From the IMG/VR virus record IMGVR_UViG_3300034068_001002, positions 1 to 22,411 of that record: 22,411 bases of DNA. One strand, written 5' to 3'. The position numbers were made by a program, and so were the translations under genes. Positions 8,985 through 11,309 of this stretch are shown one piece after another (positions within the stretch are counted from its first letter, which is position 1; the number at the start of each line of letters is the position of its first letter). This stretch comes from a virus. Under the pieces are notes generated by a model, which worked only from the letters and a program-made list of their open reading frames with translations, searched no databases and was not told the DNA's origin.

Positions 8985-9419
8985 ATGGCATACAGAACAC
9001 AATTTTTTCCACAAAATAAACAAAAGTATGTTGGTGATTCCCAAAAAATCATCTGCAGGTCACTATGGGAGCGAACCGTTTGTAAATTTTGTGATGACCA
9101 CCCAAGTATTATGAAATGGTCATCTGAAGAAATTGCTATTCCATACTTTCACCCAATAGACAATAGAGTTAGAAATTACTATCCAGATTTTTTGATTCAG
9201 TTTCAACAAAAAGAAAAGTTGTGTTTATGGATGGTTGAAGTTAAACCAAAAAAACAAACGATCTTAAAAGAAAATGCTACTAAAAATGAAAAATATACTT
9301 GGGTAGTCAATAATGCAAAATGGGAAGCAGCTAAAAATTATTGCACTAAGAATAATATTGAATTTAAACTTCTAACAGAAAAAGAGTTATACAACAAATG
9401 TCATCTTCACAAAATTTAA
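8985..9419 (+). CDS. 4: gp4-like head completion nuclease
   Basis: A 144-residue homologue of T4 gp4 (also called gp50/65), the head-completion protein with a TnsA-like PD-(D/E)xK nuclease fold. Key residues are all visible: E29 in SLWERTVCKFCD, D68 in NYYPDFL, and E85 and K87 in MVEVKPKK. That is the complete E...PD...ExK set. The length matches T4 gp4 (150). It starts the plus-strand run divergent from the baseplate operon. The ATG at 8985 has no Shine-Dalgarno, and its own late element is 6 nt away. The last 22 nt overlap the following tube-protein gene in another frame. Confidence 0.9.
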   Translation: MAYRTQFFPQNKQKYVGDSQKIICRSLWERTVCKFCDDHPSIMKWSSEEIAIPYFHPIDNRVRNYYPDFLIQFQQKEKLCLWMVEVKPKKQTILKENATKNEKYTWVVNNAKWEAAKNYCTKNNIEFKLLTEKELYNKCHLHKI

Positions 9420-9952
9420 ATAATATTGAAACTATAAAAACTTATTTGGACACTCATCAGGGTCTTCAAAGAGCTAATAGATATTCTGTTTTAATAAAAA
9501 ATAAAACAACGAATGGTGCTGCTTTAAAATGTTATCCAGAAGCAATATCCTTTGGTGCAAGGGCTACAAATTACATATATGATAATTTACAAGGATATGG
9601 TTATGGTCGTGCTGTTCCCAACTCAAGTAAGTTTGTTGGTGGAATAGTTATGACATTTATGGTTACCGGAGATTTAGATATTTTAACATACTTTAATAAC
9701 TGGTTTGATTTTATGTATAAAAAAAATGCTAATAGTGTGTTTACAGTACCTTACTATGATGAGTCTGTTTTAGGTTCTGAATTATATTTAACTTACTTAG
9801 ATCTAAATGGTAATCCTGCTCCCGGACGTTCTTTGTGGACATTTAAAGAAATTTATCCTATAGAGTGTATGCCATTAGAATTATCATCAAAACCCGACTC
9901 TCCACTTTTATATCAAGTTGTATTAAATTATCGAAGCATTGAAAGAACATAA
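9398..9952 (+). CDS. 54: gp54/gp19-fold tail tube initiator or tube protein
   Basis: A 184-residue tail-tube-fold protein. The N-terminal QRANRYSVLIKNK parallels the 'R-x-N-x-F-x-V-x-I' opening of gp19 and gp54. A later GGIVMTFMVTGDLDILTYFNNWFDFMY is the 'I-x-F-x-x-D-x-x-x-x-R-x-F-D-x-W' helix-turn of the family, and PLLYQVVLNYRSIE is the closing strand. I favour gp54 (initiator between gp48 and the tube) because of the neighbours gp48, gp53, gp4 and gp26, whereas the major tube gene gp19 normally sits next to the sheath gene gp18, which is not here. Its size (184) is closer to gp19 (163) than to T4 gp54 (320), so a gp19-type protein cannot be excluded. It overlaps gp4 by 22 nt. Confidence 0.65.
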   Translation: MSSSQNLNNIETIKTYLDTHQGLQRANRYSVLIKNKTTNGAALKCYPEAISFGARATNYIYDNLQGYGYGRAVPNSSKFVGGIVMTFMVTGDLDILTYFNNWFDFMYKKNANSVFTVPYYDESVLGSELYLTYLDLNGNPAPGRSLWTFKEIYPIECMPLELSSKPDSPLLYQVVLNYRSIERT

Positions 9953-9962
9953 GGAAACTAAT

Positions 9963-10619
9963 ATGGATATTTTGAATTTATTTAAAGAGGCTCAACCAAA
10001 GTTTGAAACAACTTTACCGTTTAGTAAGAAACAAGTTTTATTTACTGCATTTAAAGTAAAAGATGCTAAAAAAATTGCTTTAGTATTACAAGAAAATAAT
10101 AAGAAATTATCTTTAATAGCTCTTTATGAGTGCATTAAAGAAAATTCTAATTTAAAAAATGTTGATGATTTATGTTTGGCAGATGCCGAATATTTATTTT
10201 TACAAATTAGATCCAAAAGTGTTGATGAACTTTTAAATGTCCTAGTTAATGGTAGCAAATATCAGATTCAAATTAATAACATTATTACAAAAAATAATTT
10301 ACAGATTCAAACAATTTTAATAGGATCTTCAATTGTTTTAAATTTAGAATCTCCAGTACTATCAGATTTGTTAAAACAAGACAGCTTTGACGATCACACT
10401 TATGCAAAAGCATGTATTAAAAGTATAAACATATCTGGACAAGTATTTTACCTAGATAAATTTTTAAATAAAGAATGTCAGGATATTATTGATAACCTAC
10501 CAATTTCAACCATTAAAGATCTTAATAAATTTGTAGAAACCGAACCCAGACTTTATTTTGCCATAAAGGATGAAATAAACGAAAGTGAGGTAAACGGTTT
10601 CCTAAGTTTTTTTATCTAG
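9963..10619 (+). CDS. 26: gp26-like baseplate hub assembly / tail assembly chaperone-like protein
   Basis: A 218-residue T4_baseplate-family protein (T4 gp26 is 208). The N-terminus TLPFSKKQVLFTAFKVKDAKK and the middle LYECIKEN followed by VDDLCLADAEYLFLQIRSKS (roughly residues 50-80) give the family pattern 'P-x-S-x-K-x-x-x-F-x-P-F-x-x-K ... D-x-E-Y-L-F-L-x-x-R-x-K-S'. I chose the ATG at 9963 over the upstream ATG at 9939 because AAGGA at 9951-9955 is 7 nt before it; the upstream start would overlap the previous gene. The last codons are AGT TTT TTT ATC TAG, and the T7 run at 10607-10613 is a slippery site. A -1 slip continues into a 67-codon open frame (see the extension entry). gp26 assists hub assembly in T4 and is not in the mature baseplate. 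Confidence 0.8.
   Translation: MDILNLFKEAQPKFETTLPFSKKQVLFTAFKVKDAKKIALVLQENNKKLSLIALYECIKENSNLKNVDDLCLADAEYLFLQIRSKSVDELLNVLVNGSKYQIQINNIITKNNLQIQTILIGSSIVLNLESPVLSDLLKQDSFDDHTYAKACIKSINISGQVFYLDKFLNKECQDIIDNLPISTIKDLNKFVETEPRLYFAIKDEINESEVNGFLSFFI
10607..10613 (+). promoter_or_regulatory. Candidate -1 slippery heptamer T TTT TTT in gp26
   Basis: The heptamer is correctly phased: in the gp26 frame it reads aGT TTT TTT ATC TAG. A -1 slip replaces ATC-TAG by TAT-CTA-GCA and continues for 67 codons. A GAGG lies 16 nt upstream. Just downstream is a weak CTAG-CAT-CTAG hairpin; no strong stimulatory structure is seen. Confidence 0.55.
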
Positions 10620-10816
10620 CATCTAGTTACTTTGATATAATTGATTATTATAAAACTAATTTTTCATTATTTAAAGAACTAAAATGGTCTATATCGGATA
10701 TTGAAAATATGTATTTTTGGGAGAGAGAAGTTTATATAAATGTTTTAGTCAATCATAATCAAGATTTACAACAACAGCAGCAACACACAGAAGCAACAGG
10801 ACAATACATTGGATAA
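10613..10816 (+). CDS. Frameshift extension of gp26 (gp26-X), no start codon of its own
   Basis: This 67-codon open stretch fills the apparent gap between gp26 and the next gene and reads YLASSYFDIIDYYKTNFSLF, then KELKWSISDIENMYFWEREV, YINVLVNHNQ and a five-Gln run before TAA at 10814. It looks coding: aromatic, charged and amphipathic, without random stops. In its frame the stop upstream is at about 10585, and no ATG, GTG or TTG occurs until the ATG at 10709, which would give only 35 residues. The frame is entered exactly by a -1 slip at the T7 run, giving a fused product of about 284 residues. That is the layout of lambda G/GT and P2 E/E+E' tail assembly chaperones. An independent short gene from 10709 is the alternative. 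Confidence 0.55.
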   Translation, partial: YLASSYFDIIDYYKTNFSLFKELKWSISDIENMYFWEREVYINVLVNHNQDLQQQQQHTEATGQYIG

Positions 10817-11309
10817 TACAACTAAAATCGATGTTCAGGCAGAAAAAGTAGCTTTTAATGATGCTATTGTACAATCAGGTACAACTAACGATATGACAAA
10901 ACCATCTGAACCAGTTACAAAAATGGAATTGCCAAAAACTGAATTGTTAGGAGAAAAAGCAAATATGCCGTCAATTGAAATAACACCTGTTACTCCACCA
11001 AGTAACTATGAGACAGACAATAGAAATAACATGAATCCAGTTGTACCTGCTTCACGTGAATCAAAATTATTAAAAATGCAAACAAGTTCACCAGATACTG
11101 CAAATAATAAAAAAACAACTAATATTGAAAAACAAATATCACAAAATATACTTCCTTCAATTCAAAAAATTGCACAACAAGTAAATGACATGGGTGTATC
11201 AAAAGGAAAACAAGTAAGTATGACTGAAGAACGACCTACTATTGCACCCGTAAATTTAATTTTTATAGAAAGATCGGCTAGAGCATCACAACCACCTGCT
11301 TGGTCATAA
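10809..11309 (+). CDS. Low-complexity protein of unknown function (TTG start)
   Basis: A 166-residue protein with no family that I recognise. It opens MDNTTKIDVQAEKVAF and is then rich in Thr, Pro, Asn, Lys and Glu (for example PSIEITPVTPPSNYE), which suggests intrinsic disorder. Residues about 115-135 (NIEKQISQNILPSIQKIAQQ) could form an amphipathic helix. It ends PVNLIFIERSARASQPPAWS. The start is TTG at 10809; AGGA at 10798-10801 is 7 nt upstream, and the TTG overlaps the stop of the gp26 extension by 8 nt. In a chaperone-frameshift layout the next gene is often the tape measure, but this is far too short and has no long coiled coil, so I leave it unassigned. Confidence 0.6.
   Translation: MDNTTKIDVQAEKVAFNDAIVQSGTTNDMTKPSEPVTKMELPKTELLGEKANMPSIEITPVTPPSNYETDNRNNMNPVVPASRESKLLKMQTSSPDTANNKKTTNIEKQISQNILPSIQKIAQQVNDMGVSKGKQVSMTEERPTIAPVNLIFIERSARASQPPAWS

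Follow-up and report, generated by a model that had tools for sequence, protein, structure and literature searches.

A gp26 gene with a probable -1 frameshift extension related to gp51 in a lineage of T4-like phages

Introduction

This study concerns gp26, a candidate tail assembly chaperone (TAC) gene, and the open -1 frame that follows it in a stretch of viral DNA of 22,411 nucleotides (nt) (IMG/VR record IMGVR_UViG_3300034068_001002, positions 1 to 22,411), the whole of which is referred to here as the window. The closest described systems are the tail assembly chaperones of T4-like phages treated by Vladimirov, Gautam and Davidson (2022; Virology 566:9-15, PMID 34826709), a work represented here by its title and by the text of papers citing it. 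The PRFect paper cites it for T4-like phages that, in place of a frameshift, have two chaperone genes, a short one and a long fused one (PMC10885494), while another paper cites it for poly-T -1 signals in the short-form (TAC-N) genes of T4-like phages (PMC12846349). The window has in common with these systems the protein family (PF12322, phrog_634), the short and long forms, and the poly-T -1 site cited in PMC12846349. In T4, an Aeromonas phage and RB43 there are two genes and the long form is an in-frame fusion, whereas the window lineage has one gene with a frameshift. The abstract of the 2022 study reportedly describes conservation of the frameshift across several T4-like groups. Because the citing papers credit that study with both the T4-like chaperone pair and the poly-T -1 signals, the phenomenon is known in kind, and the uncultured window lineage is very probably a clear additional case of it. 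The initial annotation of the window had treated such a chaperone pair as not known to be described for T4, a point overtaken by the 2022 study as it is cited in PMC10885494 and PMC12846349.

Other systems offer more distant comparisons. The E. coli dnaX -1 signal consists of a Shine-Dalgarno (SD)-like element, a slippery heptamer and a 3' stem-loop, a layout common to many relatives of the window locus; however, dnaX has A AAA AAG where the relatives have T TTT TTY, and the window is without a clear stem and has a more distant SD-like element. At a T-rich slippery site, the contractile-tailed phage P2 adds a short C-terminal extension to gpE to give gpE+E', although its proteins are smaller than those of the window. 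With the HK97 tail assembly chaperone (2ob9) there is a resemblance in predicted fold, and the window gp26 has an extra beta-rich C-terminal half. In phage lambda, both gpG and gpGT are required in a set ratio (PMC5009743); the slippery sequence and proteins of lambda are unlike those of the window, and no sequence similarity is claimed.

Anatomy of the gp26 locus

The gp26 homologue of the window (positions 9963 to 10619; this and all other window features described here are on the + strand) encodes 218 amino acids (aa) and matches PF12322 (E 7e-22) and phrog_150, baseplate hub (E 1.5e-24). Its 3' end reads AGT TTT TTT ATC TAG, where the slippery heptamer T TTT TTT (10607 to 10613) is in phase with gp26 and a single sense codon (ATC) separates it from the zero-frame stop TAG (10617 to 10619) that ends the short form. 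A -1 slip on the heptamer leads to TAT at 10613 and from there through 67 residues (YLASSYFDIIDYYKTNFSLFKELKWSISDIENMYFWEREVYINVLVNHNQDLQQQQQHTEATGQYIG) to the stop TAA at 10814 to 10816, giving an extension of 67 codons plus stop at 10613 to 10816. The closest upstream stop in this frame is TGA at 10586 to 10588. A separate gene would have no conventional start in the window, because ATG, GTG and TTG are absent from the frame until 10709, 32 codons past the start of the extension. The initial annotation had located the in-phase heptamer beside the gp26 stop and the 67-codon -1 frame correctly to the base, and its observation that the extension does not begin with ATG, GTG or TTG holds as well; of the interval it proposed, 10581 to 10816, the end is that of the extension, but 10581 is merely a position inside gp26, and the functional unit begins with the heptamer or with an SD-like GAGGT at 10587.

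A frameshifted tail assembly chaperone gene has a characteristic anatomy: a short open reading frame (ORF), a slippery heptamer in phase with it towards its 3' end, and an extension open in the -1 (or +1) frame. The window has all of these, with the extension in the -1 frame. We consider it highly probable that such a chaperone is encoded here in two forms, TAC-N by gp26 and TAC-NC by gp26 with its -1 extension, through -1 ribosomal frameshifting; what the comparisons show is the anatomy itself, its conservation, selection on the coding sequence, homology to both T4 chaperones, and the fold resemblance to a known chaperone. Taken alone, the T-run is weak evidence, because in-phase T6/A6 heptamers are frequent enough in the AT-rich window (20 of 6780 codon pairs in its ORFs, or approximately 3 per thousand); by an estimate made from the window only, approximately 0.3 such heptamers would be expected by chance at four or fewer codons from a stop over 27 genes. 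Comparison nevertheless lifts the site above chance, given the homology of the extension to gp51 and the presence of both the site and the frame change in 205 of 207 distinct relatives.

Searched alone, the extension matches phrog_634, the 'baseplate hub assembly catalyst' or gp51 family (E 5.1e-16), and thus represents a gp51-like C-terminal domain. The ratio of nonsynonymous to synonymous substitution rates (dN/dS) of the extension, a test suggested in the initial annotation, is approximately 0.07-0.19 among the closest pairs of relatives and approximately 0.06-0.08 at greater distances, where dS is saturating, and the tail of gp26 has similar values. Judged from the phrog_634 match and from these ratios, all well below 1, the extension is a genuine protein under purifying selection.

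Conservation in related phages

A tblastn search with the extension matched hundreds of phages, mainly cyanophages, and most of the alignments begin at the slippery FF. Scans of viral contigs using gp26 and using the extension, combined with cultured phages, yielded 288 loci with both parts, which were chosen by homology and not by the presence of a slippery site. The extension is in the -1 frame relative to gp26 at 286 of these loci; in the other two, T4 and Aeromonas phage avDM4, it is in frame and the matching protein is gp51. An in-phase heptamer was found at 205 of the 207 distinct -1 loci (T TTT TTC at 164, T TTT TTT at 39, and T TTT TTA at 2), nearly always 0-3 codons from the gp26 stop and commonly at one codon, and the site is also present in Sinorhizobium, Rhizobium, Methylophilales and Desulfovibrio phages. 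One of the two loci without the run is RB43, which has two genes, so the frame relation of gp26 and the extension there is incidental. The other, L239, was set aside as a decayed gene or assembly fault, since gp26 is apparently cut by a deletion joining it to the extension. The programmed -1 frameshift proposed in the initial annotation is therefore supported by a conserved T-run, an open -1 frame and low dN/dS, and the features that it suggested looking for in related phages are kept; loss of the run or closure of the extension frame, named there as evidence to the contrary, does not occur as a rule, although L239 and Synechococcus phage S-SCSM1 are single exceptions.

Because related loci are not independent, they were clustered at 85% identity before the test for synonymous constraint, giving 145 representatives with RB43 and L239 left out. 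The codon preceding FF encodes seven amino acids (Ser, Asp, Ala, Asn, Thr, Arg and Gly) but ends in T in all 145, where codon usage in these genes would give 87.4. The first Phe codon of FF is likewise TTT in every representative. Among other FF pairs in the bodies of gp26 genes, only 5 of 136 have the T TTT TT pattern.

Candidate stimulatory elements

An SD-like GAGGG is found exactly 9 nt 5' of the heptamer in 98 of the 145 representatives, and the Glu codon at this site is GAG in 98 cases versus GAA in 19, while other Glu-Gly pairs have 9 versus 30 (Fisher p 8e-12). The 50 nt 3' of the heptamer fold better than shuffled sequences (mean z of -2.18, versus -0.44 in controls from the interior of gp26), with an 8-12-pair stem beginning approximately 5 nt 3' of the heptamer in a subset of relatives. 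A consensus stem common to all relatives was rejected, as six or more contiguous pairs in register are present in a subset only (62 of 144); the permutation signal for such a stem is modest (0.625 paired versus 0.558). In the window, the candidate stimulator is an SD-like GAGGT at 10587 to 10591; several relatives of the lineage have AAGGAGGT there, and GAG GTN occupies this position in 17 of the 19 lineage loci listed. Some relatives within the window lineage have a 9-10 bp stem approximately 7 nt 3' of the heptamer, and RNAalifold identified no common structure in an ungapped stack of sequences from the lineage.

Relation to T4 gp26 and gp51

Both parts of the window locus are homologous to T4 gp26 and gp51 and belong with them to the PF12322, phrog_150/phrog_634 family. 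T4 gp26 (208 aa) and gp51 (249 aa) are both in PF12322 and, by homology, are paralogues; their genes are on opposite strands. In profile alignments, the frameshifting gp26 matches T4 gp51 residues 6-200 (E 9e-14), up to a Phe equivalent to the FF of the slippery site, and the extension matches residues 204-250 (E 3e-10). Since gp51 aligns with gp26 up to the slippery Phe and then with the extension, T4 encodes the short and long forms as two genes. A frameshift hidden in T4 gp26 was ruled out, as the gene ends in GAG TTC TTT GAG TTA CTA TAA, without a slippery heptamer; unlike the window lineage, T4 has separate genes 26 and 51 and no frameshift.

Two PF12322 genes are present in T4, avDM4 and RB43, while KVP40 and ten further frameshift phages have one; the window record, a 22 kb fragment, has one match to gp26 rather than the two genes of the T4 type. 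From these copy numbers, the window lineage is assigned to the frameshift branch and not to the T4 two-gene branch. In an unrooted tree, the frameshift copies and the T4-type copies are separated by a well supported branch (99/98), and the gp51s group together. Because KVP40 and nt-1 retain the frameshift though classed with T4 in the Straboviridae, the evidence points to a duplication within the T-even line being derived, a direction that the unrooted tree alone cannot root.

In RB43 (L019, 2001-3294), the long (51) copy and the short (26) copy overlap as tandem neighbours on one strand, while those of T4 are divergent; the RB43 arrangement has the appearance of a tandem duplication, and an inversion would then have led to that of T4. 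A T4-type gp51 gene was also observed at L328 (2501-3246; tblastn match to residues 1-247), where 16 stops in the plain translation indicate a frame broken in the contig.

Taking the stimulatory elements and the T4 genes together, we lean slightly towards a model in which a dnaX-like signal (T TTT TTY with an internal SD and a 3' stem-loop) drives the chaperone frameshift across non-T-even T4-like phages and has parts that turn over between lineages, from the 9 nt SD spacing and stem of cyanophages to the spacing of approximately 15 nt and weak or absent stem of the window lineage. The T4 26/51 pair would then descend from such a frameshift gene by duplication, with each copy fixed to one product.

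Chaperone function and proposed mechanism

The AlphaFold2 (AF2) model of the window gp26 has a predicted local distance difference test score (pLDDT) of 90. In VIA-align, its N-terminal part aligns with the HK97 tail assembly chaperone 2ob9 (Z 6.5, 86 residues aligned, 9% identity), with the next unrelated row at Z 3.1. Matches of the model in BFVD are gp26-like proteins, while Foldseek against the PDB gave no match at E below 0.5 and a PDB sequence search with the gp26 profile gave no match. A T4 review lists gp26 and gp51 among the hub assembly chaperones and describes gp51 as essential and not in the particle (PMC3004832). Because of this listing, the resemblance of the model to 2ob9, and the gp26-like BFVD matches, gp26 and gp26-51 most likely work as TAC-N and TAC-NC in the manner of lambda gpG/gpGT. 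The chaperone role suggested for gp26 in the initial annotation is thus supported.

We infer that slippage takes place, how efficient it is and what each form does, as follows. Most ribosomes would terminate at the TAG at 10617 and yield the 218-residue TAC-N, while a minority would slip -1 on T TTT TTT, with both Phe tRNAs re-pairing on TTT TTT, and read 67 further codons to yield a 284-residue TAC-NC (217 residues ending in FF, plus the extension). If the two forms act as gpG/gpGT do in lambda, coating of the tape measure protein would fall to the short form and recruitment of tail tube subunits to the extension.

Genes for such chaperones are expected between those for the tail tube and the tape measure. 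The genomic context places a tail-tube-like gene (9398 to 9952; phrog_45 tail tube, E 5.5e-7) upstream of gp26, so that a tube gene stands beside the chaperone gene. The next ORF downstream (10809 to 11309; 166 aa, low-complexity, TTG start) overlaps the end of the extension, and its homologues come after the extension in relatives of the lineage; a motif resembling ERPT..P.NLIF..R..R.S..P.WA is common to the C-termini of these homologues. The same place is taken in cyanophages by a long gene, which in S-CAM7 matches tape measure families (E 4e-7).

Alternative explanations

Several observations weigh against a frameshifted chaperone in the window. The spacing of its SD-like element, 15 nt, is greater than the 9 nt of cyanophages, and no convincing downstream stem was found in the window (z of -1.29, and -0.19 over 50 nt), weak folding that rules out a stem-loop as a universal stimulator. 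The Z of 6.5 for the gp26 fold match falls in the range possible for unrelated folds, and the ORF at 10809 to 11309 had no match in family searches and is not recognisable as a tape measure gene. In the cultured phage S-SCSM1 (L313, 1445-1670), T TTT TTC is retained but the -1 frame ends after FFRLES, and the gp51-like segment is in the +1 frame, beginning at an ATG; this arrangement is either a decoupled gene or a sequence error.

The gp51 segment of S-SCSM1, apparently uncoupled from the slip, would fit an extension that is a separate small gene (gp51) with its own start or with re-initiation past the gp26 stop, as public cyanophage records annotate it. An early -1-frame ATG, from which those records begin gp51, is present in 107 of the 145 representatives, usually 15 nt after the start of the heptamer and just beyond the stop. 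However, 24 of the 145 have no ATG, GTG or TTG there, 14 have only GTG or TTG, and the first start in the window lies far inside the extension; in P-HM2 (L002, 1603-1695) and P-SSM7 (L018, 2106-2201), the annotated gp51 is a stub of approximately 30 residues within the conserved extension. The SD-like element ends approximately 24 nt before the common ATG, too distant to serve it, in T4 the segment forms the C-terminal end of gp51, a gp26-like protein, and the constraint on T TTT TTY is left unexplained, all of which makes a separate gene very unlikely.

Slippage of RNA polymerase on the T-run, instead of the ribosome, is less likely still as the source of the long form. The window does have seven consecutive T, as do 39 of the 205 relatives with the heptamer, but 164 have T TTT TTC, with just six T before the C. 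Six T is short for polymerase slippage in bacteria. Both the SD-like element and the fixed phase of the run within the reading frame are characteristic of slippage by the ribosome. Finally, although homopolymers such as T7 are generally error-prone, a sequencing or assembly error or a decayed gene, with gp26 really one long in-frame protein, is refuted already by independent genomes, the same frame change being present in the independent contigs L004, L005 and L006 and in many cultured phages from different sequencing groups, with low dN/dS in both parts, and we consider it scarcely credible.

Conclusions

Probable ribosomal frameshifting in a single gp26 gene bears on how T4 and its relatives are read. 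A 2016 review lists T4 as an exception to tail-chaperone frameshifting (PMC5009743); T4 is now reconciled with other phages, in that its relatives frameshift and T4 itself has a separate paralogous gene for each product. In many public records of cyanophages, gp51 is entered as a gene of its own with an arbitrarily placed start, and these annotations should become the frameshift extension of gp26; the short gp51 stubs in the P-HM2 and P-SSM7 records are probable misannotations. A simple function is also offered for gp51, a protein described in a T4 review as essential, with its function unknown (PMC3004832).
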